Part shown: positions 6,176 through 33,672 of the stretch, piece after piece | Numbering within the stretch: the stretch's first letter is position 1 | Layout of the letters: each line of letters begins with the position of its first letter | Assembly: GCA_903828515.1 (NCBI GenBank) | Contig: CAIKMD010000003.1 | Coordinates: 248,001 to 312,000 of the forward strand | Reading direction: 5' to 3' | Source: an uncultured Rhodospirillales bacterium | Lineage (GTDB): Bacteria; Pseudomonadota; Alphaproteobacteria; ATCC43930; CGMCC-115725 | DNA: 64,000 bases | Program-made: the position numbers and the translations under genes | Notes under the pieces: generated by a model | The model's database searches: none | Seen by the model: only the letters and a program-made list of their open reading frames with translations | Told to the model about the DNA's origin: nothing

Positions 6176-6236
6176 CTTATGGGGCAGGCGGCGGCGGGCA
6201 CGTGTCCGATCGCGCGTGGTCACTCGGGAGGTTTGA

Positions 6237-7682: not shown

Positions 7683-7733
7683 GTTACTTTCGACGCGTAG
7701 TACTGCGTAGTACCGATCGTTTCTCCAGAACCT

Positions 7734-7762
7734 GGGGCGCCTCGCAAGAGGCGCCCCTTTTT
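7734..7762 (+). terminator. Rho-independent terminator of amtB
   Basis: A perfect 10-bp stem (GGGGCGCCTC with GAGGCGCCCC) with GCAA loop is followed by TTTTT. It lies 50 bases after the amtB stop and just before the convergent glycosylase gene ends. Confidence 0.85.
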
Positions 7763-7775
7763 CTATGCCCCTTTG

Positions 7776-8387
7776 TCAGGGTGGAGCAGCGTCGACGAGT
7801 TTCCACATGTAGAGCGACAGGATCGAGCGCCACGGGCTGAAGGCGAGCGAGGCCTTGCGCGGACTCTTGCGGCCGATGTAGCGGCGAAACACGTTCTGCA
7901 CAGCAAGATCGCCCTCGGGCCAGATGTCGGTGTCGCGAAAATAAAAAATCGACAGCATGTCGCAGGTCCACGGGCCGATGCCCCAGAGCCGCGTGAGTTG
8001 GGTCATGCGCGCCGCATGATCGAGCGCCACCAGCATCGCGTGATCGAGCTCGCCCGCGCGCGCCGCCGCACCGATCCCGCACAGCGCCTTGACCTTGCCG
8101 CGCGACAGGCCGCAGGCCCCGAGCGTCGCGTGGTTGTCGTCGTGAAACAGCGCGACGAGTTCGGCGCCCGACGCGGCCTCGACCCGCGCCCAGATGCTGC
8201 GCGCGGCTTTGGCCGAGAGTTGCTGGCCGACTACCGCGCGGCCAAGGAACGCGACGACGTCGCCCTCGCGGTCGGGAAACCACAGCGGTCCTACCGTCGC
8301 GATATCGCGGCCGAGCGCCGGTGCGATCGCGGTCGCCGTCGCGATCAGGTGACGATGCAGGTCTCGCGGCATTTTGCTTTGCGCCAT
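7776..8387 (-). CDS. DNA-3-methyladenine glycosylase (AlkA-like, HhH-GPD)
   Basis: A 203-residue base-excision repair enzyme of the HhH-GPD superfamily, close to the short AlkA/MAG type that removes alkylated purines. The helix-hairpin-helix [15 protein letters not shown] (about 140-155) is followed by the catalytic aspartate in WPEGDLAVQ. No Fe-S cluster cysteines are present, which separates it from endonuclease III and MutY. The ATG at 8387 has a GAGGCGG site; an earlier ATG would add 13 residues. It is divergent from the symporter gene with a 44-base gap, so their promoters must overlap. Confidence 0.83.
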
Positions 8388-8431
8388 TTCCGCCTCTATA
8401 TCACGATGCCGCCGGGGAGGAACCAATCGAC

Positions 8432-9697
8432 ATGACCGAACGCCGCGCGAAGATCGCCGCCGTCATTCGCGTCGCGAGCGGCAATTTCCTCGAGATGTTC
8501 GATTTCTTCGTGTTTGGCTATTACGCCAAGGCGATCGGCGACATGTTCTTTCCGAGCGACGACCCGTTCGCGTCGCTGATGGCGGCGTTCATGACGTTCG
8601 GCGCCGGGTTTCTGATGCGGCCTTTGGGCGCGCTGGTGCTCGGCGCCTATATCGACCGCCACGGCCGCCGCACCGGGCTGATGCTCACGCTGATGCTGAT
8701 GGCGCTCGGCGTCCTGACGATCGCGCTGGTCCCCGGCTACGAAAGCTGGGGCGCGGCGGCGCCGGTGATCGTCGTGCTCGGGCGATTGATCCAGGGCTTC
8801 TCCGCCGGCGTCGAGCTGGGCGGCGTCTCGGTCTATCTCTCGGAAATCGCGACGCCCGGCCACAAGGGATTTTACGTCGCCTGGCAATCGGGCAGCCAGC
8901 AGATCGCGGTGATGGTGGTGGCGCTCCTCGGCGTGGCGCTCGCCGCCTATCTGACGCCCGCGCAGATCATGGCATGGGGCTGGCGCATCCCGTTCTTCGT
9001 CGGCTGTCTTATCATCCCGTTCATCTTCTGGCTGCGCACCGGGCTCGAGGAAACCGATGAATTCCTCGCGCAACAACACCATCCCGCCGTCGGTGAAATT
9101 TTTCGCAGCGTGGCCGCGCATTGGCGCCTCGTCCTGCTCGGCGGGCTGCTGGTGACGATGACGACGGTGTCGTTCTATTTCATCACCGCCTATACGCCGA
9201 CCTTCGGCGCGACGGTGCTGCATCTCACGCCGTTGTCGGGCTTGATCGTCACGCTCTGCGTCGGCTTCTCCAACCTGGTCTGGCTGCCGGTGATGGGCGC
9301 GGCATCGGATCGCATCGGGCGTCGGCCGTTGCTGCTGGCCTGCACCGTGTTGATGCTGCTCACCGCCTATCCGGCCTTGCTCTGGCTGGTCGACGCGCCG
9401 TCCTTCGCGCGCTTGCTGGGTGTCGAACTCTGGCTGTCGTTTCTCTACGGCAGCTACAACGGCGCGATGGTGGTCTACCTGACCGAAATCATGCCGCAAG
9501 CCGTGCGCACCGCGGGCTTCTCGGTCGCCTATAGTCTCGCGGCGGCTTTGTTCGGCGGCTTCACCCCGGCGATCAGCACCTATCTCATCCACATCACCGA
9601 CAATCGCGCGATGCCGGGGATCTGGCTCGGCTTTGCCGCGCTGTGCGGGCTGGCGGGAACCCTGCTGCTGGGGCGAAAGCGGCCGGTGGAGGCCTAG
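8432..9697 (+). CDS. MHS-family citrate/tricarballylate:H+ symporter
   Basis: A 421-residue inner-membrane transporter with twelve predicted hydrophobic segments. The family signature [18 protein letters not shown] opens the protein, then [20 protein letters not shown] with the RHGRRTG loop, [16 protein letters not shown], and [17 protein letters not shown]. These agree closely with the CitA/TcuC branch of the metabolite:H+ symporters, which import citrate or tricarballylate with protons. Citrate versus tricarballylate cannot be told apart. The ATG has a GGGGAGGAA ribosome site. No tricarballylate dehydrogenase genes lie nearby, so uptake of citrate-like acids seems more likely. Confidence 0.85.
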
Positions 9698-9709
9698 ACC
9701 CAGGCAGGC

Positions 9710-9727
9710 GGGGCGGTTTTCCGCCCC
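9710..9727 (+). terminator. Possible terminator after the symporter gene
   Basis: GGGGCGG-TTTT-CCGCCCC forms a 7-bp hairpin 13 bases after the stop codon. A direct T tract does not follow, so termination would be weak or Rho-assisted. Confidence 0.35.
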
Positions 9728-9741
9728 CGAAAGCGCCCCTT

Positions 9742-9770
9742 TTGCCCCTCCCTTTGGAAGCCGTTATGCT
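9742..9770 (+). promoter_or_regulatory. Sigma-70 promoter of the aminotransferase-ftsK unit
   Basis: TTGCCC, a 17-bp spacer, then TATGCT. The start of transcription would be near 9777, about 27 bases before the TTG start codon. Confidence 0.55.
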
Positions 9771-9803
9771 ATGGTACCCGTGACTTAGGGGGTACTCTTC
9801 GAC

Positions 9804-10997
9804 TTGCCTATCAACCCGCGCCTCGAACGGCTTGCCGACAACCCGTTCTCGAAGCTCCGCGAGCTTCTGGACCCGGTGCAGCCACGCTCGAACGAGCCGG
9901 CCTTGCCCTGGGCGGTCGGCGAACCGCAGCACGAGCCGCCGCCCATGCTGGCGCGAATTCTGGCGGAAAACAGCCATTTATGGAACCGTTACCCGCCGCC
10001 GCCGGGGACCCCGGAATATCGCAAAGCGTGTGCCGCTTGGCTGGCCCGACGTTACCGGTTGCCGGCCGGAATGATCGATGCCGAGCGCCATGTCCTGATC
10101 TGCGACGGGACCAAGGAGGCGCTGTTCCTGGCGCCGCAAATGGCGGTGCCGCCGGACAAGAACGGCCGGGTCCCGACCGTCCTCATGCCGAACCCTTATT
10201 ACAATGTGTACAACGGCGGGGCGACGCTGGCGGGCGCCGAGCCGGTCTATCTCGACTGCACCAAGGAGACCGGGTTCCTGCCCGATCTCGATGCGATCCC
10301 CGAGGACATCCTCGCGCGCTGCGCGCTCTTTTATCTCTGCAGCCCGGCCAATCCGCAGGGCGCGGTCGCCGATCTCGCCTATCTCAAGGAAGCGATCCTG
10401 CTCGCGCGCGCTTACGACTTCGTCCTCGTCGTCGACGAATGTTATTGCGAGATTTATTCCGACGCGCCGCCGCCGGGCGCGCTCGATGCTTGCGCCGAAC
10501 TCGGCGGCGCGCTCGACCAGGTGCTGGTTTTTCACTCTCTCTCCAAGCGATCGAGCGCGGCGGGTTTGCGCTGCGGTTTCGTCGCCGGCGATCCGCGCCT
10601 GATCGAACGCTTCGCTCATCTGCGTTCCTACGCCGCCCCGCAAGTGCCGTTGCCGGTGCAGGAAGTCGGCATCGCGCTGTGGGGTGATGAAGATCACGTC
10701 GATGAAAACCGCGCGCGCTATCGCCGCAAATTCGACATCGCGGAAAATCTGCTGGGCGGACGTTTCGGTTTCTACCGGCCCGCCGGCGGATTCTTTCTCT
10801 GGCTCGATGTCGAGGATGGCGAGGCGGCGGCGCGCACCCTGTGGCGCGAGGCGGCCATTCGCGTGCTGCCCGGCGCCTATACCGCGCGCACCAATCCGGG
10901 CTGCGAGAATCCCGGCCAACGTTACATCCGCGTCGCTCTCGTTCACGACGACGCCACCATCGAAGCGGGCATGCGGCGCATGCTTCGCGTGCTTTAA
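9804..10997 (+). CDS. PLP-dependent class I/II aminotransferase (DapC-like)
   Basis: A 397-residue fold-type I aminotransferase. The PLP-binding lysine lies in FHSLSKRSSAAGLRCG, with YLCSPANPQG and VVDECYCEIYSD as the usual substrate/cofactor motifs and a C-terminal YIRVALVHD. Alphaproteobacterial homologues in front of ftsK are annotated as N-succinyldiaminopimelate aminotransferase (DapC), which makes an intermediate of lysine and peptidoglycan; that assignment is from context and not proven by residues. The start is TTG with an AGGGGG site about 11 bases upstream; the next ATG would remove a conserved N-terminal stretch. ftsK follows 17 bases after the stop. Confidence 0.82.
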   Translation: MPINPRLERLADNPFSKLRELLDPVQPRSNEPALPWAVGEPQHEPPPMLARILAENSHLWNRYPPPPGTPEYRKACAAWLARRYRLPAGMIDAERHVLICDGTKEALFLAPQMAVPPDKNGRVPTVLMPNPYYNVYNGGATLAGAEPVYLDCTKETGFLPDLDAIPEDILARCALFYLCSPANPQGAVADLAYLKEAILLARAYDFVLVVDECYCEIYSDAPPPGALDACAELGGALDQVLVFHSLSKRSSAAGLRCGFVAGDPRLIERFAHLRSYAAPQVPLPVQEVGIALWGDEDHVDENRARYRRKFDIAENLLGGRFGFYRPAGGFFLWLDVEDGEAAARTLWREAAIRVLPGAYTARTNPGCENPGQRYIRVALVHDDATIEAGMRRMLRVL

Positions 10998-21046: not shown

Positions 21047-22375
21047 CTAGAACGGAACCGTGAGCTGCACGCTGCCCTGATGGCGGTGATAGGTATAGAG
21101 CGCCTGGTTGGAATCGGCGAAGGTCCAGGCATAGGTCAGCGACACTTGCGCGTCGTGATAGCCGAGATCGTAGATCAGGCTCGCCGTCGTGGTGTAGATC
21201 GTGTCGTTGCGCGTGTTGCCGAAGGCCGGTGTGTTTTTCTCATAGGCCGCGTTGCGGATGCCCGGTTCGACATAGACCGAGAAGCCGTTGCCGATCGGCT
21301 GGAAGATGGCGAGCGAGCCACCGATCTGGTCGTCGCGGTTGAACGCGGCGCGCGCCTCCTCGTGTCCGAGCAGCAGCTTCGGTTGGATATAGGCGCCGGG
21401 CGAGCCCCAGAACCATTGCAGCGAGGTCACGCCGAAATAGGCCTGGCCGGTGCGCGACGAATCGGTGTGATAAATGTTCTGCTCGATCGATGCCTGCTCG
21501 AGGAAGACGAGCTGCGAATTGATCGGCATGGTGAAGAGCGGCGCCAGGCCGAACGACGTGCTGTAATCGCGGCCGTTGAACAGCGAGTGGCTGACGTTGG
21601 CATTGGTGTTGAGCTGGAACGGCAGCGCGCCGAAATTGCCGCGGAAAGCGGGTCCGGCGAACAGCGTGCCGGCGCCGTAATCGAACTGATCGTAGGTCAG
21701 ATAATGCACGCCGCCGAGCGCGGCGCCGGCGGTGAACCCGACCGTGTCGTTGAAGAAATGCGCGTAATCGATTTCGCCGGCGGCTTCGAGGCCCCAGTCG
21801 GAGCGTTTGCGGACCGCGCTCGAAAGCTGGAACGGCGCGCCGAACACGGTGATCGTGCCGCTCGACGGGCCGGCGCCGGGGTTGCTGTCGAAGAGGGCGC
21901 CGAAGGTGAACTGGGCCGACCATTCCTTGCCGGTGTTGGCGGGCGCGAGGCTCGCCAGAATGCGTTGCAGATCCGCGCGCACTTGCGGCGGCGGATCGGC
22001 GTCGAGCACGGATTGATAATCCGCGCGCGCCGAATTCGTCTGCCCCGCCGCCAGTTCCGCGTTGGCGAGTTCGGCGCGTGCGCGCGTGTTGCCGGGTTCG
22101 CGTGCGAGGATGAATTGGAAATGCTGGATCGCTTCGTCGGGCTTGCCGGTCTGCGTCAGGCATTGGCCCATCATGAAGCGAAGCTGAAGGTCGTCGCGGT
22201 TCCCCGGCAGCAACGGGCGCAGACGATCGCACGCGGCTTGCGCCTGTCCGCTCTGTAGAAGTTTTCCGGCATCGGCTTCCGCCGCGGCGGCGCTCGACGG
22301 CGCTTGTGCCTGCGCGGCGCCGGTGACGAACAACGCGATGATGAAGGTGGTGGCGATCAGATGATGCTTACGCAT
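21047..22375 (-). CDS. Slam-like (DUF560) outer-membrane translocon with TPR domain
   Basis: A 442-residue exported protein. A signal peptide (1-23, ending AQA) is followed by a TPR region (about 30-145) with units such as FMMGQCLTQTGKPDEAIQHF and ARAELANAELAAGQTNSARA, then a C-terminal beta-barrel (about 150-442) opening FTFGALFDSNPGAGPSS and ending in an aromatic residue (VQLTVPF), as outer-membrane barrels do. This is the layout of Slam / type XI secretion translocons, which export surface lipoproteins or soluble cargo. The adjacent upstream gene encodes an exported glycine-rich protein that could be cargo. The assignment to Slam rather than another TPR-barrel family needs a profile search. 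Confidence 0.6.
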   Translation of the reverse strand: MRKHHLIATTFIIALFVTGAAQAQAPSSAAAAEADAGKLLQSGQAQAACDRLRPLLPGNRDDLQLRFMMGQCLTQTGKPDEAIQHFQFILAREPGNTRARAELANAELAAGQTNSARADYQSVLDADPPPQVRADLQRILASLAPANTGKEWSAQFTFGALFDSNPGAGPSSGTITVFGAPFQLSSAVRKRSDWGLEAAGEIDYAHFFNDTVGFTAGAALGGVHYLTYDQFDYGAGTLFAGPAFRGNFGALPFQLNTNANVSHSLFNGRDYSTSFGLAPLFTMPINSQLVFLEQASIEQNIYHTDSSRTGQAYFGVTSLQWFWGSPGAYIQPKLLLGHEEARAAFNRDDQIGGSLAIFQPIGNGFSVYVEPGIRNAAYEKNTPAFGNTRNDTIYTTTASLIYDLGYHDAQVSLTYAWTFADSNQALYTYHRHQGSVQLTVPF

Positions 22376-22555
22376 AGTCCCCCCAACGTTCGGCGCGCGT
22401 CTTCCGCCTCTTGCGGAAAAATCATCGGCTTCGATTTCGACGGCGCCGATCTATCCCTGAAATTTTTTTTAGGTCGAGTGAAAAGCGCTGCTGCCTTTAC
22501 CTTTCCCAATCGTCGACACGGATTTTTCACATTCCGCCGCGTGTCGTGTTGTGAC

Positions 22556-22582
22556 AAAAAAAAGCGCGCCGGCGTGGCGCGC
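22556..22582 (-). terminator. Rho-independent terminator of the glycine-rich gene
   Basis: On the minus strand GCGCGCC-ACGCC-GGCGCGC is followed by eight T residues. It lies 25 bases after the stop of the glycine-rich gene, so the downstream barrel gene needs its own promoter or relies on read-through. Confidence 0.9.
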
Positions 22583-22606
22583 TTTTTCTTGGCAAATTTT
22601 CTACCT

Positions 22607-25093
22607 TCACTGAGTCGATCGCTTGTCTTGCGGCACGGATGCGGTTTGCTCGTGCGCCGATCCATTGTTGTTGTCGGCGGTGTTGTTCGAGTTCTCGGTC
22701 GAACCGCAATAGTAGTAATCGTTCGCGTGCGTCGACGAGCAGACATCGGCGACGGCACCGACGCTCGCGCCGCTGCTTCCGCCGGAGCCGGCGAAACCAT
22801 TGCCGCCGCCATTACCGATCCCGGTGCCGCCGGCGCCACCGATACCGCCGCCGGTCCCACCCGATCCGATGGTGCCGCCACCGGTACCGCCCGTGCCGAT
22901 CGTGCCGCCGACCGTGATGGGGCCGGTGTCGATCGGCAATCCACCGACATCGACCGTGCCGCCGACGGTGGTTCCGCCGGTTCCCGTCGTCACCGTGACA
23001 CCGGTCGAACCGCCGAACGGCGCGCCGCCGCCGGTACCGCCGGCCGATGGATTGATAACGATGGTACCGCCCGCGTCGGTGCCGCCGATGGTCGTGCCGA
23101 CCGTCCCGGTTCCCGATCCGCCCGTGCCGGCGCCTGTCCCGAGGCTGACACCGGCATTGGCGCCAACGGGGGCGAGCGTGGCGACGGCCGGCGTCGTGAC
23201 GCTCGTACCAGCCGATGCGGTGGTGCTGCCCGGATTACCCGCGGTGCTGCCGCCCGGACCGTTGCTGGTTCCGAGATTGACGCCAATCGTGGCGTCCGCC
23301 GGGGCGAGGAAAGCTGCGCTCGGCGTTGCCGCGTCTGCGCCAATCGATGCGGTCGTGGTGCCCGGATTACTCGTGGTGCCGCCGCCCGTTTCGGTCCCGG
23401 TTCCGAGATTGGCACCAATCGTGGCATCCGTCGGCGGGACAACGGCCAGGCTTCGCGTTTTTGTGTGCACGCCGACCGACGCGGCGGTGCCCGGATTGCT
23501 CGCAGTGCCGCCGCCCGTTCCGTTGCCCGTACCGGTTCCGAGATTGACGCCAACCGTGGCGTCCGCCGGCGCGATGGCGGCGACGCTCGGCGTCAACACG
23601 TTCGCACCGACCGATGTGGTGGGTATGGTCGATGTGCCATCGCTATTGCCGAGCGTGACGCCGAGTTCGGCGCCGGCCGCTGCTGGCGCGATCGCGAGGA
23701 TGCTGGGTGTCGCAAGGCCCGCGCCGGCACCGGTCGATCCGCCGGTACCGCCCGAATTGCCGGTGCCACCGTTATTGCCGAGGCCGACGCCCAAACCCGC
23801 ACTGACATTGGCGAGGCCGGTGTTCGCGCCGATTCCCGCACCCGCCGTGGTCGGCGTGCCGCTCGGAGAACTTCCGGTGCCGCGATTGCCGAGATCGAGA
23901 CCGAATCCGACGCTCGCGACGGCCGGCGTAATCGGGGTCACGACGCCGGTGCCCGCGCCGATCATTGCGCCGGTGCCGGTCGAATTGCCGCTGCCGTTAT
24001 TGCCAAGTCCGACGCCCAACCCGGCGGTCGTGCCGTTCGGCGGGCTCGCATTGCCGCTATTGCCGAGGCCAAGGCCGATACCAACCCCGGCGCCGACCGG
24101 CGTGATCAGGCCGATATCGGGCGTTGCCACGCCGACCCGGGCACCAACAGCGGCCACAGTGGCGTTCGTGCTGCCGCCGTTATCGCCTGAGTTTCCGTTG
24201 CCGGTATTCCCGTTATTTTCGTTTCCCGTGTTGCCGCGGGTTCGGCCGAGCGCGACGCCCGCGCCGGCTCCGGCGGCGGTCCGATCATGGCTGGTCCCGA
24301 TGCCGAGACCGGCACCGACGGCGGCGACAGTGTCGCTCGGGTTGCCGTTACCGGCGGTTCCGCTGCCGGCATTCCCATTATCGTTGCTGGCTCCGCTCCG
24401 GCCGTTGGTTCGGCCGAGCGCGACACCCGCGCCGGCGCCGGCGGCAACCCGATGGTGACTGGTCTTTGCGCTGACGCCGGCACCAGCGCCGACTACCGCT
24501 TGCCGCGACCCGGCGGCATCGCCCGACGATGTGCGCTGGTGCGGTTTCGTACCGACGCCAACACCCACGCCGGCGCCCGCCTGGAGATCGGCCGGTCTCG
24601 CGCCAACGCCGACGCCCGCGCCCACCCCGACGCCCGACGGTCCGGCGCCCAAGGCCTCGAGATCCTGGGTGCTCAGCCCGGCGCCCAGGCCGGTACCGAC
24701 GCCCACGCCGTTGCCGGTCGCGGCGCTTCCAACGCCGGCACCCACACCAGCGCCGACACCCAATCCCGATCCCGCGCCCGGATGCGCCGTGCTGCCGGCG
24801 GGGCTACCGATTCCGGCGCCCGCGCCCAATCCCGCGCCAATGCCCGGTGCGCCGCCGATCCCGGCGCCGAGCCCGACACCGCCGCCGAGGCCCGGAATGC
24901 TGGTCAGCCCGGCGCCAATCCCGGCGCCTGCGCCGACTCCCGGCGTGGTCGCCGCGTGAGAGCCACCCGCACCCGCACCCACGCTGACCCCGGCGACGAT
25001 CCCACCGGCATGCGCCGGCGACGACAGGGAGAAGCCGATCGTCAGCGCGATGACGGAGCAGGACGCGGTGAAAGAATTGCAAAATCCGAACAT
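22607..25093 (-). CDS. Exported glycine-rich repeat protein, unknown function
   Basis: An 828-residue protein with a Sec signal peptide (about 1-29, hydrophobic core VIALTIGFSL, ending AHA) and no lipobox. The mature part is low complexity: GAG/GVG-rich stretches (about 40-250), Asn/Gly-rich linkers, then imperfect repeats of about 44 residues (about 500-680) built on TPSxAxxAPxxATxGxNLGT and NPGTTxAS. The last 50 residues differ: two cysteines (VCSSTHANDYYYC) that may form a disulfide, then a polar, charged tail. A GAGAGGA ribosome site supports the ATG. It has its own terminator. I do not recognise a family; surface, matrix or filament roles are guesses. Confidence 0.7.
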   Translation of the reverse strand: MFGFCNSFTASCSVIALTIGFSLSSPAHAGGIVAGVSVGAGAGGSHAATTPGVGAGAGIGAGLTSIPGLGGGVGLGAGIGGAPGIGAGLGAGAGIGSPAGSTAHPGAGSGLGVGAGVGAGVGSAATGNGVGVGTGLGAGLSTQDLEALGAGPSGVGVGAGVGVGARPADLQAGAGVGVGVGTKPHQRTSSGDAAGSRQAVVGAGAGVSAKTSHHRVAAGAGAGVALGRTNGRSGASNDNGNAGSGTAGNGNPSDTVAAVGAGLGIGTSHDRTAAGAGAGVALGRTRGNTGNENNGNTGNGNSGDNGGSTNATVAAVGARVGVATPDIGLITPVGAGVGIGLGLGNSGNASPPNGTTAGLGVGLGNNGSGNSTGTGAMIGAGTGVVTPITPAVASVGFGLDLGNRGTGSSPSGTPTTAGAGIGANTGLANVSAGLGVGLGNNGGTGNSGGTGGSTGAGAGLATPSILAIAPAAAGAELGVTLGNSDGTSTIPTTSVGANVLTPSVAAIAPADATVGVNLGTGTGNGTGGGTASNPGTAASVGVHTKTRSLAVVPPTDATIGANLGTGTETGGGTTSNPGTTTASIGADAATPSAAFLAPADATIGVNLGTSNGPGGSTAGNPGSTTASAGTSVTTPAVATLAPVGANAGVSLGTGAGTGGSGTGTVGTTIGGTDAGGTIVINPSAGGTGGGAPFGGSTGVTVTTGTGGTTVGGTVDVGGLPIDTGPITVGGTIGTGGTGGGTIGSGGTGGGIGGAGGTGIGNGGGNGFAGSGGSSGASVGAVADVCSSTHANDYYYCGSTENSNNTADNNNGSAHEQTASVPQDKRSTQ

Positions 25094-25679: not shown

Positions 25680-26540
25680 TTATCCCGGTAGGGCCAGTAT
25701 ATCGCGATGACCCACGGTCAAGGCGAGTCCTCCGTCGGCGAGCGTCGCCTGCCGCGCCGCGCGCCAGGCGGTGATGACATCGGTTTGTTCGGGCGCCGCT
25801 TCGCATGCCGCGCCGGCTTCACCATCGACGAGCGCGCTCAATAACAAGCGATCGTTTTTGCCAAGCCGCCACGCGCTGCTCGCGGCGGAGACGGCAAACC
25901 CGCGATCGACGAGACATTGGTCGAGTGCGTCGGCAGCCGCGCCGCCGAGCGCCGCGCCAAATCCCTTGTCGCGCGCCTGATGATGGCGAAAGGCGGCTGC
26001 GACGATCGCGTCGTCGTCGTGCACGGGTAGCCAATCGCGAACGCCGTCAACCGTGAGGACCGCCAACAACGGCAACCGCCGCCGTGCGAGAACGTCGACG
26101 AAGCGCGTAAGCCATTCCGCCGACACGAGATCGAAAAACGCGGCGGCGGTCACGGCGTGAATGTCGAGCCGGTCGAGCGCGGCGAGATTGCTCATCAGAT
26201 CGAGCGGCATGCTGGCGGCGGTCCAGCGCGCCGCCCCAACGGTGATCGCGATGCGGCCACCGCCGGCGAGGACGGGATAACCCTGGCGCCTTGCCCAATG
26301 CGTGAATTCCGGTTCCTGCGCGGCGATCAGCGCGCGGTCGCGATCGATCAGAATCCAATCCTGCTCGGCGCCGATGCGCGGCATCAAGGCGCGCGCATTG
26401 GCGCCGCTGCCCGATCCCAGATCGGCGATGCGGAGCGGACGCGGCAATGTGGCGGCAAAACTTCGCGCCAGCGCGGGGCTGCGCGCGGCGAGATCGGCGG
26501 GTTCGCGCAGGCGCAACCAGTCGAGCGCGAAGTCGCTCAT
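25680..26540 (-). CDS. Class I SAM-dependent methyltransferase
   Basis: A 286-residue protein with a Rossmann-type SAM fold: motif I RIADLGSGSGANARAL (about 50-65), the following acidic WILIDRDRALI, and a later TAAAFFDLVSAEWL that corresponds to motif IV/V. The acceptor is unknown. Its ATG overlaps the stop of the glycosyltransferase gene (ATGA), and it is the fifth gene of the tightly overlapping minus-strand set that starts with the RibD-type reductase. It may methylate a sugar or pterin-like product of that set; this is inferred from context only. Confidence 0.75.
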   Translation of the reverse strand: MSDFALDWLRLREPADLAARSPALARSFAATLPRPLRIADLGSGSGANARALMPRIGAEQDWILIDRDRALIAAQEPEFTHWARRQGYPVLAGGGRIAITVGAARWTAASMPLDLMSNLAALDRLDIHAVTAAAFFDLVSAEWLTRFVDVLARRRLPLLAVLTVDGVRDWLPVHDDDAIVAAAFRHHQARDKGFGAALGGAAADALDQCLVDRGFAVSAASSAWRLGKNDRLLLSALVDGEAGAACEAAPEQTDVITAWRAARQATLADGGLALTVGHRDILALPG

Positions 26541-27589
26541 GCCAGCAATCGTTCGATCTGGGTTTGCCACTGCATCGCCGCCTGGTCCCAATCGGGAAGC
26601 GCCGCGCCGGCTTCGGCGGCGCCGCGCGCCAGTTGCGCGAGGCGGTCGCGGTCATCGAGCAGCACCGACAGCGCGTCGCGCAACGCGCCGATATCGCCTG
26701 GTGGTACGAGGATCGCGGCCTTCGCGGGCACCGTGTCGGGAATGGCACCGGCGCGCGTGGCGATGATCGGCACGCCATGCGCCAGCGCCTCGGTGAAGGC
26801 CATGCCATAGCCTTCGTGATAAGACGGCAGAACGAAAAGATCGGCGCTGTCATAAGCCGCGCCCAATTCGCCCGGCGCGCGTTCGCCGGCCAGTGTCACG
26901 CGATTGCCCAGTCCGTGAGTCGCAATCGCGTCGCGCAATTGCGCCCCGCAAACCGGATCGCGGTCGAGGCTGCCGATGCAGTCGAGTTGCCAGTCAGCGT
27001 GAGTCAGCGATGCCAGTGCCTCGATCAACAGGACATGGCCTTTGCGCGGCGTGACCGTCGCGACGCAGAGCAGACGCAACGGGCCGGATGTTTTCTCGCG
27101 CCGGATCACGCGCATGGGCTTCGCGGTGCCGGGCGGTGCGACCGCGATGCGCGCGCGCGTCACGCCATAAGCCGCGACCGACGCTTCGGTCGCTGGGCTC
27201 GGACAGATCACGCCGCGCATCAGCGGCAACAGATCGGCTTCCATCGCAGCAAAGTGTGCGGCTTGCACGGCGCTTAAGCCGGTTTCCTCGGCCAGCGGAT
27301 GGTGCACCCAGGCTACGAGGCGCAACCGCTTTGCTTCGCGCGCGAGACAAGGCGCGAACGCGGCCAGCGACAGCCCGTCGATGATCGCGGTCGTGTCGTC
27401 GGGCAATGCGACGAGTGCCGCATCCGCTGCCGCGATGGCGGTGCGATCCGGTTCGGGAAAGGTGCCTGCGAGTTCGATCACCTCGACGGATTGTCGGCGC
27501 GCGCGCAGGCGCTCGACGATGTTGCGCGCGAAGAGATAACCGCCGGTCAGCTGATCGATGGAGCCGGGGAGGATGAGGACAAGCCTCAC
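26537..27589 (-). CDS. Family 4 glycosyltransferase
   Basis: A 350-residue GT-B glycosyltransferase. The C-terminal nucleotide-sugar domain has LLCVATVTPRKGHVLLIEAL, the GERAPGELGAAYDSADLFVL loop and the EX7E-type motif in PSYHEGYGMAFTEALAHGVP, typical of GT4 enzymes. The N-terminal domain starts LVLILPGSIDQLTGGYLFAR. No membrane segment is seen. It overlaps genes on both sides by four bases (with the PTPS-like gene upstream and the methyltransferase downstream), so it belongs to the same operon. It may glycosylate a pterin-like product, as known for pteridine glycosyltransferases in cyanobacteria, but the acceptor is unproven. Confidence 0.85.
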   Translation of the reverse strand: MRLVLILPGSIDQLTGGYLFARNIVERLRARRQSVEVIELAGTFPEPDRTAIAAADAALVALPDDTTAIIDGLSLAAFAPCLAREAKRLRLVAWVHHPLAEETGLSAVQAAHFAAMEADLLPLMRGVICPSPATEASVAAYGVTRARIAVAPPGTAKPMRVIRREKTSGPLRLLCVATVTPRKGHVLLIEALASLTHADWQLDCIGSLDRDPVCGAQLRDAIATHGLGNRVTLAGERAPGELGAAYDSADLFVLPSYHEGYGMAFTEALAHGVPIIATRAGAIPDTVPAKAAILVPPGDIGALRDALSVLLDDRDRLAQLARGAAEAGAALPDWDQAAMQWQTQIERLLA

Positions 27590-27987
27590 AGTTTCCCTTC
27601 GAAGGCCGCCCAGGCGACCGGCGATTCGCGCAGCATCACCCGCATCGAAGCGAGTTCGCCGGCGATATCGGGACCGAGCGCGCCGGCGACGATCCGCGTT
27701 TTCATGCGGCGAAAAATGTCGCCGGCCAAAAACTCGGTGGTGGTGTTGCGCCCCTTGTAGCCGGCGACCTCGTCGAGGTTGCGGTAATTGATCTCGCCCA
27801 GCACCGCCTTCAGTGTGTCTAGCGCCTTGCCGATGTCGCAGATCAATCCGTCCGCGTCGAGTTCGGCGCGGCGGAACTCGACCTCGACTTCATAGGTGGC
27901 GCCGTGCAGGCGCTGGGCGGGGCCGAAGATGTCGCCGACGAAACTATGGGCGATCATCACGTGGTCGCTGACGGCAAGACTGTACAT
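27586..27987 (-). CDS. 6-pyruvoyl-tetrahydropterin synthase/QueD-like protein
   Basis: A 133-residue protein of the PTPS/QueD fold. The LDEVAGYKGRNTTTEFLAGD segment and the catalytic glutamate in MRVMLRESPVAWAAF match the family. The zinc site looks altered: the first His is present (MIAHSF), but the usual HGH motif reads HGA (RLHGATYEVEV), and the catalytic cysteine that normally precedes it is missing. It may therefore bind a pterin but catalyse a different step, or none. The start MYSLAVSDH was chosen over a longer arginine-rich reading. It overlaps the glycosyltransferase gene by four bases. Confidence 0.75.
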   Translation of the reverse strand: MYSLAVSDHVMIAHSFVGDIFGPAQRLHGATYEVEVEFRRAELDADGLICDIGKALDTLKAVLGEINYRNLDEVAGYKGRNTTTEFLAGDIFRRMKTRIVAGALGPDIAGELASMRVMLRESPVAWAAFEGKL

Positions 27988-27997
27988 GGGTGCGATC

Positions 27998-28972
27998 CTA
28001 GCGGTAGCGCACGATCTCGCACAACGCGCCATCGGGCGCCGTTGCGAGCCGTGTCATGGTTTGCGGCAAATCGGCGAAACGCGATTCGCCGGTGATGAGG
28101 TGGTCGTAGACCGGATCGGCGAGCAGGTCCAAGGCCGCAATCAATCGCTCGCGATGGGTGACCGTCGCGCGGCGCGAGGGTGCGACGGCGCCGACCTGCG
28201 AGGCGCGCAAGGTCAAACGCTTGCTGTGAAAATTCTCGCCGAGCGGCACCGCGATGCGTTTGTCGCCGTACCACGAGAGTTCCAAGACCGTCGCCTCGAA
28301 GGCCGCGAGCGACAAGGCGGTGGCGAGGCCGGCTTCGCTGGCGCTCGTGTGAATGACGAGGTTGTTGTCGCCTTTGGCATCGGCCGGCAGCGCGAAGTCG
28401 CAACCAAGCTTTGCCGCGATGGCGGCGCGGCGCGGATCGATGTCGATCAATTGCAGGCGAACCTTCGACAGGCCCTTGAGCAGCGACGCGACGAGACAGC
28501 CGACCACGCCGGCGCCAACCACCGCGATGCGATCGCCGATCCAGGCGCCCGAATCCCATTTCGCGTTGAGCGCGGTTTCCATGTTGGCGGCCAGCGCCGC
28601 GCGCGCATCGGGCACCGCATCGGGGACCGGCACGACGGAGTCGGCCGGGACGATATAAAAATCCTGATGCGGATAAAGGCAGAAGACGCGCTTGTCTTTC
28701 ATCGCGGGCGCGCCGTCTTCGACGATGCCGACCGAGGCATAGCCGTATTTCACCGGTCCGGGAAAATCCCCGTCCTGAAAAGGACAGCGCATCGCCTGAT
28801 ACTGGCTCTCCGGTACCGCGCCGTTGAAGACGAGGCTCTCGGTGCCGCGGCTGATACCGCTGGTCAGGGCGCGGACCAGAACCTCGCCGGGTTTCGGTTC
28901 GGGAAGTGTCGTCGTTCGAAGGATGCCGCGTCCCGGCTGTTCGAGCCAGAACGCGCGCGCCTCAATCGTCAT
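27998..28972 (-). CDS. MDR-family dehydrogenase lacking the catalytic zinc cysteine
   Basis: A 324-residue medium-chain dehydrogenase/reductase. The nucleotide-binding fold has AVVGAGVVGCLVASLLKG (about 165-182) followed by LIDIDPRRAAIAAKLG. The N-terminal catalytic domain reads SGISRGTES where zinc alcohol dehydrogenases have GxCGTD, so the zinc-ligating cysteine is absent, as are the four cysteines of the structural zinc. Relatives with the SRGTE motif are usually called zinc-binding dehydrogenases without proof. The ATG overlaps the stop of the RibD-type gene, and the PTPS-like gene follows after 10 bases. It probably oxidises or reduces a side chain of the pathway product. Confidence 0.78.
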   Translation of the reverse strand: MTIEARAFWLEQPGRGILRTTTLPEPKPGEVLVRALTSGISRGTESLVFNGAVPESQYQAMRCPFQDGDFPGPVKYGYASVGIVEDGAPAMKDKRVFCLYPHQDFYIVPADSVVPVPDAVPDARAALAANMETALNAKWDSGAWIGDRIAVVGAGVVGCLVASLLKGLSKVRLQLIDIDPRRAAIAAKLGCDFALPADAKGDNNLVIHTSASEAGLATALSLAAFEATVLELSWYGDKRIAVPLGENFHSKRLTLRASQVGAVAPSRRATVTHRERLIAALDLLADPVYDHLITGESRFADLPQTMTRLATAPDGALCEIVRYR

Positions 28973-29753
28973 CGCCGCCATCGAAGATGCACTCGAACAG
29001 CACATCTTCGCCGAGGGTGAAGCGGCGGATGCGTGGTCGCATGCCGTGACCGGGCTCGACGATTTCGGGCAGCGTGACGCTCGGCCGGCCCGAGCCGAGA
29101 ATGACCGGCGCGACCGCCAGATGCAGGCGATGCAGCAATCGCGCGCGCAGGAAATGCGAGACGGTGACGCCGCCGCCCTCGATCAACAGCCAATGCAGGC
29201 CGCGCGCGGCCAATGCGGTCATGATCGCGCCCGGCGCCACGATGCCGTTCTCGCGTGGCAGCGACAGGATTTCGGCCGCGCCGGCGCGGCCACCCGCTGC
29301 CGCGCGATCCGCCGCGGCGATGACGAGGGTCGGCGCGCTGGTGTCAGTGAAGACGCGATGATCGGGTCCGAGCTTGCGCTCGGGATCGATCACCACGCGG
29401 ACCGGATGCTTGCCGTCGCAATGCCGCACGGTGAGCTGCGGGTCGTCGTGCAGGATGGTGTCGGCGCCGACCACGACGGCGTCGGCCAGCGCGCGCAGGC
29501 GATGGGTGTGGCGCAGATCCTCGTCGCCCGAAATCCAGCGCGAGGCGCCGCACGCGGTCGCGATCCGCCCGTCGAGGCTTTGGGCCAGATGCGCGAGCGC
29601 GAAGCTTTGCCCCGGCGGCACGGCGCAGAGCGGGCCGTAAAGCTCCGCGAGCTCGCCCAGATCGGTCAACGGCGCGGCGGCGCCGCGACGGCGCGCCAGT
29701 ACCCGTCGCCATTGCGCGTCGGTGCGCGTGGCTATGTCGCCTTCGGCCGGCAT
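28962..29753 (-). CDS. RibD C-terminal (DHFR-fold) reductase
   Basis: A 263-residue protein with the reductase domain of RibD, the 5-amino-6-(5-phosphoribosylamino)uracil reductase fold. Markers are AQSLDGRIA, VVGADTILHDDPQLTVR, VRVVIDPERKLGP and LLIEGGGVTVSHFL. The N-terminal deaminase domain of RibD is absent; instead there is a 70-residue unrecognised leader. It heads the minus-strand operon. NADPH reduction of a pyrimidine or pterin intermediate is likely from the fold, but whether it serves riboflavin itself is doubtful given its neighbours. It is divergent from the CDP-alcohol phosphotransferase gene across only 47 bases. Confidence 0.8.
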   Translation of the reverse strand: MPAEGDIATRTDAQWRRVLARRRGAAAPLTDLGELAELYGPLCAVPPGQSFALAHLAQSLDGRIATACGASRWISGDEDLRHTHRLRALADAVVVGADTILHDDPQLTVRHCDGKHPVRVVIDPERKLGPDHRVFTDTSAPTLVIAAADRAAAGGRAGAAEILSLPRENGIVAPGAIMTALAARGLHWLLIEGGGVTVSHFLRARLLHRLHLAVAPVILGSGRPSVTLPEIVEPGHGMRPRIRRFTLGEDVLFECIFDGGDDD

Positions 29754-29800
29754 GCTAAACCCCTTTTCCCTACAACGTAATATGAGGCAAGGAGTGGGGC

Positions 29801-30382
29801 TTGGGGACAAACAATTTTTCGCGAGTGGTGGTTCCAAGCCCTTTCGGCGCCGCGAACGCGGTCACCGCGTTCCGGGGCGGCTGCCTCCTCGTCGCCATCG
29901 TCGCGGGTCTTGCCCTGCCCGGACCGACCGGTCGCTGGATCGCGGCGGGAATCGCGGCGGCGGCGCTGCTGCTTGACGGTCTCGACGGATTTCTCGCCCG
30001 CCGTCTCGGCCAGGCCAGCGCGTTCGGCGCGCGGTTCGACATGGAAACCGATGCTTTCGCGATGCTCGCGCTGGCGTTCCTGGTCTATGCGCTTGGCCAG
30101 GCCGGACCGTGGGTCCTTCTCAGCGGGCTTCTGCGTTATATCTTTATCGTGGGCGGTTGGGTGTTTCCGCGCCTCGCCGCCCCGCTGCCGCCGAAGAAGC
30201 GGCGGCAAACGGTCTGCGTGGTGCAGATGGCGGCGCTGATCCTGGCCTTGGCGCCGCCGGTCACGCCGGCGGTGGGCGGATGGATTTGCCTCGCGGGTCT
30301 GATCCTGCTGGGCTATTCCTTCGCGATTGATACGGCCTGGCTGATGCGGAACGGCCGGACGGAAAACGAGGCGACGGGTTGA
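29801..30382 (+). CDS. CDP-alcohol phosphatidyltransferase family protein
   Basis: A 193-residue membrane enzyme with about six hydrophobic segments. The full family motif D-x2-DG-x2-AR-x8-G-x3-D-x3-D is present, from LDGLDGFLARR to the aspartates of ARFDMETD at about residues 59-84. Such enzymes move a phosphoalcohol from a CDP-activated donor to an acceptor alcohol, usually in phospholipid synthesis. The acceptor is unknown. The start is TTG, supported by AAGGAG seven bases upstream. Its stop overlaps the TTG start of the GTP cyclohydrolase gene, so the two are coupled. Confidence 0.85.
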   Translation: MGTNNFSRVVVPSPFGAANAVTAFRGGCLLVAIVAGLALPGPTGRWIAAGIAAAALLLDGLDGFLARRLGQASAFGARFDMETDAFAMLALAFLVYALGQAGPWVLLSGLLRYIFIVGGWVFPRLAAPLPPKKRRQTVCVVQMAALILALAPPVTPAVGGWICLAGLILLGYSFAIDTAWLMRNGRTENEATG

Positions 30383-31491
30383 GCGACGGAACACAAAAGA
30401 CGGCGACGCATTTGCTGCGCAATGTCGACCGGGTGATCGGCGATTTGCGGCGCGGCGTGATCGCGATCATCGCCGACGACGATCGCGCGCTGGGCGTTCT
30501 CGCCGCCGAGACCGCGACGGCGGAGTCGCTGGCCCAACTCGCGTCTCTCGGGTCGGGCAGCGTCGCGCTCGCGTTGACGCGCCGGCGCGCGGCGGTGCTG
30601 GGCCTGGCGCCGGCGGCGAGCAGCCCCGGCGGCTCGATTGTTCTGACACTGCCGCCCGGCACCGAAGCATCGTTTCTGCATCGCCTCGCCGATCCCGGCG
30701 CCGCCGTGGTCGGCCTGGGGCTCGCATCGCCCAGCGGCGACCGCACCGCCGACGCGGCGGTCGAACTGACCAAGCTCGCGCGGCTCTTGCCGGCGGCGGC
30801 GATCGTCGAGATCGCACTCAAGGATGCGGGCGCCATCGCGGCGGCGGAAGGCTTGTTGATGTTGAGCGCGGCTGACGTGTTCGCCTATCAGGATGCTGAA
30901 TCACGAAGCCTGACGATCGTCAGCGAAGCGCGCGTGCCGCTGGAAGATGCCGAGGAGACGCGCCTCATTCATTTCCGTCCGCGCGATGGCGGCGTCGGCC
31001 ATGTCGCGATCGTGATCGGCGATCCCGATCCGACCAAGCCGGTGCTCGTGCGGCTTCATTCGGAATGTTTCACCGGCGACCTGCTCGGTTCGATGCGCTG
31101 CGATTGCGGCGATCAGTTGCGCGGCGCGATCGCCGAGATCGCCAAGAGCGGCGGTGGCGCGGTGCTTTATCTCTCGCAGGAAGGACGCGGCATCGGCCTC
31201 GCCAACAAGCTGCGCGCCTATGAATTGCAAGACGCGGGTTTCGACACGATCGACGCCAACGAGTTGCTGGGTTTCGACGCCGACGAGCGGGTCTATCTGC
31301 CGGCCGCCGAGATGCTGCGCAAACTCGGGTACAACAGCGTGCGCCTGCTCACCAACAATCCGGAAAAGGTGGCGGCGCTGACACGCTGGGGGATTACCGT
31401 GGCCGAACGCGTGCAACATGCGTTTCCCGCCAACGCCCATAACGAACGTTACCTGCGCACCAAGGCGATACGCGGCGGTCACCTGCTCTGA
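30379..31491 (+). CDS. GTP cyclohydrolase II with a decayed RibB-like domain
   Basis: A 370-residue protein. The C-terminal part (about 180-370) is GTP cyclohydrolase II: VRLHSECFTGDLLGSMRCDCG supplies the zinc cysteines, GAVLYLSQEGRGIGL carries the catalytic residues, and VRLLTNNPEKVAALT follows. The N-terminal half has the length and opening (DRVIGDLRRGVIAIIADDDR) of 3,4-dihydroxybutanone-phosphate synthase, but the metal-binding ENEGD motif is gone (RALGVLAAET), so that activity is probably lost. It opens GTP to give a pyrimidine for riboflavin-like or pterin-like products. The start is TTG, overlapping the preceding stop (TTGA). Confidence 0.88.
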   Translation: MSDGTQKTATHLLRNVDRVIGDLRRGVIAIIADDDRALGVLAAETATAESLAQLASLGSGSVALALTRRRAAVLGLAPAASSPGGSIVLTLPPGTEASFLHRLADPGAAVVGLGLASPSGDRTADAAVELTKLARLLPAAAIVEIALKDAGAIAAAEGLLMLSAADVFAYQDAESRSLTIVSEARVPLEDAEETRLIHFRPRDGGVGHVAIVIGDPDPTKPVLVRLHSECFTGDLLGSMRCDCGDQLRGAIAEIAKSGGGAVLYLSQEGRGIGLANKLRAYELQDAGFDTIDANELLGFDADERVYLPAAEMLRKLGYNSVRLLTNNPEKVAALTRWGITVAERVQHAFPANAHNERYLRTKAIRGGHLL

Positions 31492-31604: not shown

Positions 31605-32567
31605 ATGGGTGTCCTCCACTATGTGCCGTTGACGTCATCGACCAGCGCGGTCCCCGCGGCGGCGGCGGCGAAACCGTCGACCACGACGGCGTCCGATGCG
31701 AAGTCGGGTGGCGCGACGCTGTGGTCGAACGGCAGTTTCGGTTTCAAGGACCTGCTCGATATCGTCAACCCGCTCCAGCATCTGCCGGTGATCGGCTCGG
31801 TCTATCGCTATCTCACCGGCGACGAACCTTCGGGCGGCGCGCGCATCATCGGCGACGCGATCTTCGGCGGTCCGATCGGCTTCGGCACCGGCGTCGTCAG
31901 CGCCATGCTGACGGATTCGAAGGGCCACGATCTCGGCGAACGCGCGCTTGCCGCCGTGTTCGGCCCCCCCTCGAGCGATGGTCCGATCGTCGGCACGCCG
32001 ACCATCGCCAACAATAACGTTCCACCCGCCGCGGCGCCGCTGCAGACCGCGCGCGCCGCCGTTGCCGCCGTGCCCCAGGCCGCGCCGGCCGTGGCCGCCC
32101 AGGATCAGCCGGTTCGTCAGCCGGTCGGCCTGCCGGTCGCCACCCCGGACATGGCCGGCCTGTTCCGGTCCGCACCCGCCGCCGCGCCGGCGGCGACGCC
32201 CGAACAGGCGTTCCTCGCCCAGGCTGCTTCGGTGCAGCGCCAGGCCGCCAACGGCCAGACCCTCAATAACCGGGCGGTGCCGCTCGAATTGACCAGCAAT
32301 CTCCTACCGGTTTCCCGGCCTGCCGCGCGGCCCGCCGCTCCGGCCCAGCCGACCCTTTTGGCGCCGCCCGTGCCGGCCACGGCCACCCCGGCGTCCTCGA
32401 CCCCCGCCGCCGGCCCGGCCGATCCGGCTCCAGCCGCCAACGGCTCCAATCCGATCGCGCAAAAGATGCTGGACGCCCTGACCAAGTACCAGCAGCTGAA
32501 AAAGGCGGAAGAACAAGGGGATAGCGCCCAGGACCCGGCACCACCCAAGGTCGATCTGTCGCTTTAA
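31605..32567 (+). CDS. Ala/Pro-rich protein of unknown function (alphaproteobacterial family)
   Basis: A 320-residue protein with one ordered block, about residues 45-105, with FKDLLDIVNPLQHLPVIGSV and YRYLTGDEPSGGARIIGDA followed by the glycine-rich FGGPIGFGTGVVSAML. I have seen similar NPLQHxPxxxxxYRxxTGDE blocks in uncharacterised alphaproteobacterial proteins. The rest is low complexity, Ala/Pro-rich, and the last 40 residues form a polar helix (AQKMLDALTKYQQLKKAEEQ). There is no signal peptide. The hydrophobic glycine-rich part may touch a membrane. No ribosome site is clear. It precedes rpoH behind a weak hairpin. Confidence 0.65.
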   Translation: MGVLHYVPLTSSTSAVPAAAAAKPSTTTASDAKSGGATLWSNGSFGFKDLLDIVNPLQHLPVIGSVYRYLTGDEPSGGARIIGDAIFGGPIGFGTGVVSAMLTDSKGHDLGERALAAVFGPPSSDGPIVGTPTIANNNVPPAAAPLQTARAAVAAVPQAAPAVAAQDQPVRQPVGLPVATPDMAGLFRSAPAAAPAATPEQAFLAQAASVQRQAANGQTLNNRAVPLELTSNLLPVSRPAARPAAPAQPTLLAPPVPATATPASSTPAAGPADPAPAANGSNPIAQKMLDALTKYQQLKKAEEQGDSAQDPAPPKVDLSL

Positions 32568-32799: not shown

Positions 32800-33672
32800 A
32801 TGAGCATGAAATTTGATTCCAGCCTGAGCCGTTTCGTCACCGAGGCGAAGCGGTACCCGATGCTGACGCACGAACGCGAACGCGAAGTCGCGGCGGCGTG
32901 GCATGAGAAGACCGACCGCGCCGCGCTCGACGAGCTGGTCGGCAGCCATCTTCGCCTAGTGGTGAAAATTGCGCGCGGTTTCGCCGGCTACGGTCTGCCG
33001 CTCTCCGATCTTGTCGCCGAAGGCAATGTCGGCTTGATGCAGGCGGCCGAAAAATTCGATCCCGATCGCGGCTTCCGTTTCGCGACCTACGCGATGTGGT
33101 GGATCCGCGCCTCGATCCAGGAATACATCCTGCATTCCTGGTCGCTGGTGAAGATCGGCACGACGGCCGCGCAAAAGAAGTTGTTCTTCAACCTGCGCCG
33201 GCTCAAGGCCCAATTGCAGCAATTCGAGCAGGGCGACCTGCCGAGCGAGGCGGTCACGGCGATTGCCGTCGAACTCGACGTCTCGGAAAACGAGGTCATC
33301 GAGATGAACCGCCGGTTGGGCGGAGCCGATACCTCGCTCAACGCGCCGTTGGGCGGCGAAGCCGAAAGCGAATGGCTGGAACTTCTCCCCGACGAACGCC
33401 CGAGTCAGGAAACCGTCCTGGGCGATCTCGAGGAAGGCCGCCGCCGCCGCGATCTCCTGGGCGTCGCCTTGAAGAAGCTCAACCCCCGCGAACGCGAGAT
33501 CGTGGTCGAGCGCCGCCTGAAGGATGAGCCGGCGACGCTCGAAGAACTCTCGCATAAATACGCGGTCTCGCGCGAGCGCATCCGCCAGATCGAAGTGCGG
33601 GCGTTCGAGAAACTGCAAAAGGCGGTAACCGCCGCCAACATCTCGCACGCGCCGGAACGCATCGCCGCCTGA
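32800..33672 (+). CDS. rpoH: RNA polymerase heat-shock sigma factor RpoH
   Basis: A 290-residue sigma-32. Region 2 contains LRLVVKIARGFAGYGLPLSD and FATYAMWWIRASIQEYI; the RpoH box QKKLFFNLRRLK (about 127-138), diagnostic of heat-shock sigmas, is exact; region 4 has LSHKYAVSRERIRQIEVRAF for -35 recognition. It directs transcription of heat-shock genes such as dnaKJ, which in this window has a sigma-32 type promoter. The GAGGG site nine or so bases upstream may be masked by a leader hairpin. Alphaproteobacteria often have two rpoH genes; only one is seen here. Confidence 0.96.
   Translation: MSMKFDSSLSRFVTEAKRYPMLTHEREREVAAAWHEKTDRAALDELVGSHLRLVVKIARGFAGYGLPLSDLVAEGNVGLMQAAEKFDPDRGFRFATYAMWWIRASIQEYILHSWSLVKIGTTAAQKKLFFNLRRLKAQLQQFEQGDLPSEAVTAIAVELDVSENEVIEMNRRLGGADTSLNAPLGGEAESEWLELLPDERPSQETVLGDLEEGRRRRDLLGVALKKLNPREREIVVERRLKDEPATLEELSHKYAVSRERIRQIEVRAFEKLQKAVTAANISHAPERIAA

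Follow-up and report, generated by a model that had tools for sequence, protein, structure and literature searches.

An SCO6650-type gene cluster in an uncultured Rhodospirillales bacterium and its proposed GTP-derived, glycosylated and possibly lipid-anchored product

The window analysed here is a stretch of 64,000 nucleotides from the genome of an uncultured Rhodospirillales bacterium (assembly GCA_903828515.1, contig CAIKMD010000003.1), and the subject of this study is a cluster of seven genes at positions 25680 to 31491. The cluster belongs to the SCO6650-type cluster family, recognised through relatives of the Streptomyces coelicolor protein SCO6650. Its core, encoding an MDR-fold dehydrogenase, a PTPS-like protein, a GT4-family glycosyltransferase and a methyltransferase, together with a RibD-type reductase, most likely represents a conserved, uncharacterised pathway. 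With a probability of roughly 0.55, we infer that this pathway starts with GTP cyclohydrolase II (GCHII) and the RibD-type reductase, also uses the PTPS-like and MDR proteins, the glycosyltransferase and the methyltransferase, and possibly joins the product to a lipid, the individual reactions and the product being deduced from the gene identities. The genes of the cluster are as follows.

25680..26540, minus strand: class I methyltransferase dependent on S-adenosylmethionine (SAM), no Pfam family (open reading frame (ORF) and predicted fold)
26537..27589, minus strand: GT4-family glycosyltransferase (PF13692, 2.4e-28; PF00534, 7.5e-28)
27586..27987, minus strand: PTPS-like T-fold protein, orthologue of SCO6650 (PDB 3D7J) (PF01242)
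27998..28972, minus strand: MDR-fold dehydrogenase, distantly BchC-like, without conserved zinc-ligand cysteines (predicted fold and weak profiles)
28962..29753, minus strand: RibD C-terminal-type reductase, deaminase domain absent (PF01872, 5e-39)
29754..29800, no strand: divergent intergenic stretch of 47 bases (sequence)
29801..30382, plus strand: CDP-alcohol phosphotransferase, catalytic motif intact (PF01066, 3.9e-19; TTG start with AAGGAG upstream)
30379..31491, plus strand: GCHII with a degenerate DHBP-synthase-like N-terminus, probably the RibA of the cell (PF00925, 1e-57; TTG start)

The ORF calls agreed with the seven genes and the 47 bases between the two strand sets that an earlier sequence-only reading had described, and the gene identities it had proposed were backed by Pfam for five genes and by predicted folds for the methyltransferase and the MDR protein. 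Same-strand neighbours either overlap (4 to 11 bases) or are separated by a 10-base gap, the overlap between the CDP-alcohol phosphotransferase and GCHII genes being four bases. The start of the PTPS-like gene was placed at the ATG at 27987, which is kept among relatives (the mechanical ORF begins at 28032). A consensus scan of the 47-base stretch revealed no sigma-70-like site, and an Rfam scan of the window at the gathering threshold gave one tRNA and nothing else, and thus no FMN riboswitch.

Conservation of the cluster and its recurring partners

A search of 385 genomes of the class with the PTPS-like protein gave matches at E 1e-5 or better in 49 genomes, of which the 45 at E <1e-28, the window's own genome included, were kept as cluster genomes, and four (3e-7 to 9e-6) were dropped as probable other PTPS proteins. 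The MDR gene (E 1e-20 or better) was found in exactly the same 45 genomes and in 0 of the 340 others (Fisher p 8e-60, relatedness ignored). A scan of named genomes with the PTPS-like alignment gave at least 590 relatives; the best 80 were kept, a sample that leans to close relatives, and their loci come from alpha-, beta- and gammaproteobacteria, Gemmatimonadota, Acidobacteriota and Actinomycetota, with many metagenome-assembled genomes among them. Of 394 genomes in the class to which the Streptomyces genome with locus L150 belongs, 57 had the PTPS-like protein (E 1e-15 or better), and neighbourhoods were fetched for 40 of these. Hereafter, 124 neighbourhoods means 44 class relatives plus the 80 named loci, and 164 adds the 40 actinobacterial ones; since named loci L096 and L106 duplicate L046 and L047, counts of 162 distinct neighbourhoods omit them, while counts of 124 and 164 keep them.

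All four core genes occurred together in 145 of the 162 distinct neighbourhoods, in four phyla (Pseudomonadota, Actinomycetota, Gemmatimonadota and Acidobacteriota). This co-location exceeds chance, and the cluster is real as a conserved unit. The numbers of neighbourhoods with each gene were as follows.

162 distinct neighbourhoods: MDR 161, GT4 160, methyltransferase 146, CDP-alcohol enzyme 111, GCHII 78, flippase-like 71, creatininase 65, sulfatase-superfamily 37, YceI 29
44 class relatives: MDR 43, GT4 42, methyltransferase 38, RibD-type 35, GCHII 17, CDP-alcohol enzyme 15
Best 80 named: MDR 80, GT4 80, methyltransferase 73, RibD-type 64, CDP-alcohol enzyme 60, GCHII 27
40 actinobacterial: MDR 40, GT4 40, methyltransferase 37, CDP-alcohol enzyme 37, flippase-like 35, GCHII 34, creatininase 30, RibD-type 10

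The only class relative without an MDR gene near the core carries one on a different contig, and by a strict count the RibD-type reductase was present in 109 of 164 neighbourhoods and 99 of 124. The proposal that the seven genes form a conserved set is supported for the core genes and less so for GCHII and the CDP-alcohol enzyme, which are near the core in a minority of class relatives. Three class relatives with genomes of 1.4-1.6 Mb (L076, L077 and L079) retain a compact cluster with GCHII, RibD-type reductase and creatininase genes. Retention from Actinobacteria to Halomonas to alphaproteobacteria, even in genomes of this size, makes a useful product very likely.

Clustering of the neighbouring ORFs with the core genes masked revealed further partners in the 124 neighbourhoods (two of them repeats), namely LPG_synthase_TM-type proteins, referred to here as flippase-like (36), creatininase-family proteins (35), FkbM methyltransferases (32), YceI (30), sulfatase-superfamily membrane proteins (29) and MdoH-like GT2 proteins (27). 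For the sulfatase-superfamily partner, the single L101 sequence had no Pfam match, 15 of 22 aligned members matched Sulfatase, and a single, weak PDB match was obtained (E 0.06); the partner families were also Pfam-checked in two further actinobacterial loci. The 44 class genomes hold 47 copies of YceI in total, and a copy lay within 9 kb of the cluster in 12 genomes against 0.19 expected, although these 12 genomes span seven families and so are not all independent. Other lineages also carry a separate cluster GCHII, often with a creatininase-family protein. Together, the recurring partners are pointing to a GTP-derived, glycosylated and possibly lipid-anchored product.

Elsewhere in the window, profile searches placed RpoH downstream of the cluster (32800-33672). 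An Ala/Pro-rich protein with no Pfam family is encoded at 31605-32567 on the plus strand, and 10 of 124 loci have a relative of it near the cluster. Two long overlapping ORFs on opposite strands, neither with a Pfam match, lie at 22304-25093.

An altered PTPS fold and its companion enzymes

The PTPS-like protein matches the Pfam PTPS family (PF01242, 1.7e-20, 73.6 bits against a cut-off of 22.4). Its family profile found PDB entry 3D7J ('Uncharacterized protein SCO6650', from S. coelicolor) with E 3e-60, and the single sequence matched the same entry at E 6e-40 over residues 1-131 of 133, near full length, which makes it an orthologue of SCO6650. E85 and E121, which presumably take part in pterin binding, are retained in 125 of 125 sequences. 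According to PMC5041015, catalytic PTPS and QueD proteins (PTPS-I, II and III of COG0720) carry the motif CxxxHGH, CxxxxxHGH or ExxHGH. None of these motifs was present in the 125 sequences, all of which have HGA instead of HGH. Where the motifs would have Cys or Glu, the sequences have Gly22 (125/125), Ala24 (125/125) and Gln25 (122/125, with Arg in the other 3). In the profile alignment, the Asp-His of other PTPS proteins is Asn-Tyr in the window protein; across the 125 sequences the first place is mostly Asn (89), with Asp still in 14, and the second is Tyr in 83, Phe in 27, Leu in 10 and Met in 5. As these losses are fixed across phyla, they indicate an altered function and not decay within one genome. 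An ordinary PTPS or QueD was ruled out by the loss of the catalytic motifs. The 3D7J protein is reported to have a pterin-like pocket but to lack zinc, a catalytic triad and PTPS activity. PMC5041015 gives the function of the PTPS-V subfamily as still unclear.

The MDR protein scored 19 bits against a Pfam cut-off of 32 and 42 bits against TIGR01202 bchC (cut-off 291), and its predicted structure (pLDDT 93.0) matched alcohol-dehydrogenase (MDR) folds, the best at E 5e-21. The ligands of zinc alcohol dehydrogenases are missing, with no Cys in columns 93% conserved among 123 MDR sequences; C318 near the C-terminus was the only nearly invariant Cys (27 sequences), and the family has a conserved SRGTE motif, which we take to stand where Cys is usual in MDR enzymes. 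For the methyltransferase, Pfam and NCBIfam gave no match, and its AlphaFold2 model (pLDDT 96.8) had SAM methyltransferases as the top Foldseek matches in the PDB (best 3mgg, E 3.7e-10, TM-scores near 0.5). The GT4 protein matched only generic GT4 profiles in Pfam and NCBIfam.

In the RibD-type protein, the reductase domain (PF01872) covers residues 83-260, and no N-terminal deaminase domain was found with Pfam or NCBIfam, whereas the RibD of the own genome (L080:6182-7279) has one. Its closest PDB entry was 6p8c, named 2,5-diamino-6-ribosylamino-4(3H)-pyrimidinone 5'-phosphate reductase, at 101 bits, while RibD entries scored at most 69.5 bits. The absence of a deaminase and the nearness to an entry named as a 2,5-diamino reductase would fit an enzyme that takes the GCHII product directly. 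A third RibD_C-type protein (233 aa; L081:6214-6915, own genome C6:720297-720893, L005) is encoded off the cluster, where it adjoins an ABC-transporter-type ATPase gene.

CDP-alcohol phosphotransferases carry the motif DxxDGxxAR...GxxxDxxxD, and its residues D59, D62-G63, A66-R67, G76, D80 and D84 were present in at least 93% of 71 sequences. In a tree of this family, the sampled cluster copies mostly fell together and away from paralogues, with 3 label changes where shuffled labels gave 19.7. The tree did not show a single clade, its branches were long, and L237, a cluster copy, had a paralogue label. In genome G028, where no local CDP-alcohol gene was found, YceI and CDP-alcohol genes adjoin each other ~65 kb from the core cluster (C1:2536413-2537506).

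GCHII, riboflavin and creatininase

The window GCHII gave a full GCHII match (PF00925, 1e-57) and a PF00926 match over part only (7e-9). Its three zinc cysteines (C230, C241 and C243) and Y281, the equivalent of Escherichia coli Tyr105, are all intact, at what we take to be the zinc-cysteine and Tyr105 places. The cluster has no riboflavin synthase or lumazine synthase gene; both lie beside nusB in L080 (own genome C7:1825000-1841000), where ribD with its deaminase domain, ribC, a RibBA-type gene, ribH and nusB stand in a row at 6182-10015. The sequence-only reading had asked for rib genes elsewhere in the genome, and ribD, ribC, ribB and ribH lie on another contig; a plain riboflavin operon was rejected for the window cluster.

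The same reading had held ordinary riboflavin synthesis to be unlikely, but the view that GCHII has no part in it is not supported. The RibBA-type protein of L080 scored 129 bits, above the GCHII profile cut-off, but its zinc cysteines and a large part of the active-site stretch are gone, and judged by these losses it has probably lost GCHII activity. It was the only other match when the own genome was searched with the window GCHII, and no second intact GCHII was found, although at 98.7% completeness a gene could be missed. GCHII of the window kind (E 1e-30 or better) was present in 162 of the 385 class genomes, 125 of them cluster-free. A tree of 45 GCHII proteins placed the window copy with 20 off-cluster copies and six near-cluster copies (support 86/94, not strong; next larger group 96/92), apart from the cluster copies of Halomonas, Thauera and several alphaproteobacteria; the sample comprised 24 of 44 near-cluster copies and 20 away copies chosen largely by similarity to the window GCHII, which favours this result. 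A fairer comparison came from three genomes with two copies (G015, G216 and G382), where the window GCHII was 58-60% identical to the away copy and 44-46% to the near copy. A GCHII dedicated to the cluster was rejected, the window protein being the only intact copy found and grouping with away copies. On this sequence evidence it is most likely the housekeeping RibA standing beside the cluster, and it is probably shared with riboflavin synthesis and able to feed both pathways. An adjacent ribA should therefore not be assigned solely to the new pathway.

The cluster GCHII of Actinobacteria is different. Among the 40 fetched and 8 named actinobacterial loci, 39 have a cluster GCHII. In the 31 of these with a creatininase gene, the Tyr105 place is Met in 23, His in 4, Leu in 3 and Gln in 1, so that Tyr is lost in all 31, while the 8 loci without creatininase have Tyr in 7 and Leu in 1 (Fisher p 5e-7, which may reflect one or two evolutionary events). 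RibBA-type copies in seven named genomes kept Tyr in 8 of 8, with a Met-type cluster copy in two of the genomes only (G385 and G386), and in a further GCHII-like match (L176) the Tyr105 residue was unreadable. BrbF, a creatininase-family protein of Sinorhizobium, is described in PMC9478397 as a proven formamidase of the formylamino GCHII intermediate in riboflavin synthesis. By analogy, the creatininase-family protein of the clusters is likely a formamidase. Creatininase was not found in the window genome, and none would be needed there if its GCHII is normal. L137, L131 and L101 are among the non-actinobacterial loci in which creatininase lies beside a Tyr-type GCHII.

Proposed pathway, alternatives and known systems

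In the proposed pathway, GCHII would convert GTP to 2,5-diamino-6-ribosylamino-pyrimidinone phosphate, and the deaminase-less RibD-type reductase would turn the ribosyl into a ribityl group with no deamination, the route taken by archaea and fungi. The next four proteins could act in various orders. An intermediate resembling a pterin or pyrimidine would bind to the PTPS-like T-fold protein, which together with the MDR protein would finish the ring or side-chain chemistry, while addition of the sugar would fall to the GT4 protein and that of the methyl group to the methyltransferase. The CDP-alcohol phosphotransferase may link the product to a phospholipid. The product first proposed from sequence, a GTP-derived ring that is glycosylated, methylated and perhaps lipid-linked, retains the support of the GTP-ring enzymes, the GT4, the methyltransferase and the lipid-type genes, but the absence of PTPS catalytic motifs counts against part of it. 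Tentatively, the product could be a new class of envelope lipid, with a methylated and glycosylated ribityl-pyrimidine or pterin head group joined via its polyol to phosphatidic acid by the CDP-alcohol enzyme; in many lineages the LPG_synthase_TM protein would flip it, and YceI and a sulfatase-superfamily transferase would handle it on the outside. If true, at least four bacterial phyla would share this lipid, which might be redox-active.

Several observations weigh against the pathway as proposed. Near the core, GCHII (17/44) and the CDP-alcohol enzyme (15/44) are present in a minority of class relatives, 8 of the 45 cluster genomes lack a GCHII match at a cut-off of E 1e-30, and as the window GCHII groups with housekeeping RibA, its adjacency to the cluster could be incidental. 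The RibD-type reductase was not found in 30 of the 40 actinobacterial neighbourhoods, and reduction may accordingly not be a core step. In 22 non-actinobacterial loci a Tyr-type GCHII accompanies creatininase, which speaks against a simple division of labour. None of the recurring partners (creatininase, flippase-like, YceI, sulfatase-superfamily, FkbM and MdoH-like GT2) turned up in the window, so that here the CDP-alcohol enzyme is the one piece of evidence for a lipid, and the flippase-like genes are present in 0 of the 44 class relatives.

The low count of the CDP-alcohol enzyme among class relatives would suit a glycosylated pterin or pyrimidine that is soluble or secreted, the CDP-alcohol enzyme then doing an unrelated lipid job. 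The GT4 and methyltransferase would be enough for a soluble glycoside, and vicine is a pyrimidine glycoside. In faba bean, its synthesis begins with a GCHII reaction, according to PMC12202586. We consider a soluble product possible but doubtful, since the CDP-alcohol enzyme is present in 60 of the best 80 named and 37 of the 40 actinobacterial neighbourhoods, its cluster copies mostly group apart from paralogues, and flippase-like genes occur in 36 of the best 80 named and 35 of the 40 actinobacterial neighbourhoods. The substrate of the core could also be a pterin made by GTP cyclohydrolase I (FolE), like that of an ordinary PTPS, with GCHII and RibD incidental. The PTPS fold with E85 and E121 kept, a FolE encoded elsewhere in the own genome and the few class relatives with GCHII nearby are consistent with this route, which is nevertheless unlikely: a homologue of the own FolE lies near in only 2 of 124 loci (L037 and L098; the other FolE type was not sought), which favours a GCHII-derived over a GCHI-derived substrate, and in contrast GCHII is near in 44 of 124 and 34 of 40 and the RibD-type reductase in 99 of 124. 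The actinobacterial cluster GCHII with lost Tyr beside creatininase also argues against FolE.

It is highly improbable that the cluster simply serves riboflavin synthesis, with GCHII and the RibD reductase among chance neighbours. The status of the window GCHII as the only intact copy found, grouping with off-cluster copies, agrees with that explanation, but a deaminase-bearing RibD, riboflavin synthase, RibB and RibH are encoded elsewhere, and the PTPS/MDR pair is unmatched in 340 of 385 class genomes. To our knowledge, GT4, methyltransferase and MDR proteins have no place in riboflavin synthesis. Riboflavin synthesis is thus contradicted for the five minus-strand genes, which are conserved as a unit, and is possible only for GCHII. 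The preferred GCHII-dependent pathway links a catalytically altered PTPS fold to GTP cyclohydrolase II instead of I, provides defined partners for the orphan structure 3D7J, and makes a concrete prediction of a GTP-derived, glycosylated and perhaps lipid-linked compound.

Of the known systems, SCO6650/SCO6655 of S. coelicolor is linked to the window cluster by its orthologous PTPS-like protein (E 6e-40). Actinobacterial loci such as L179 and L184 have the order PTPS, GT4, methyltransferase, flippase-like, creatininase and GCHII, which, from the tag numbers and not from that genome, would fit the S. coelicolor locus tags 6650-6655. SCO6655 reportedly releases a formylamino pyrimidine owing to a Tyr to Met change. 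It is listed in PMC2853524 among genes mostly rising in stationary phase. The window cluster differs in having no creatininase, a Tyr-type housekeeping-like GCHII and an adjoining RibD-type reductase. In BrbF and the archaeal ArfA-ArfB, the opening of GTP and the deformylation are split over two proteins (PMC9478397), as cluster-bearing Actinobacteria seem to do, but those systems serve riboflavin, and the search of the window genome gave no creatininase. With bacterial riboflavin operons the window cluster shares GCHII and the RibD reductase domain, whereas it lacks the deaminase domain and the riboflavin and lumazine synthases and has GT4, MDR, PTPS-like, methyltransferase and CDP-alcohol genes. 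Cyanobacterial pteridine glycosyltransferases glycosylate a GTP-derived ring, and the toxoflavin tox genes combine GCHII with a methyltransferase; neither system is known to have the present gene set. The individual pieces of the pathway are known, while searches of open-licence literature gave no paper on SCO6650 or 3D7J and no description of the pathway as a conserved unit, of its partners or of its product.

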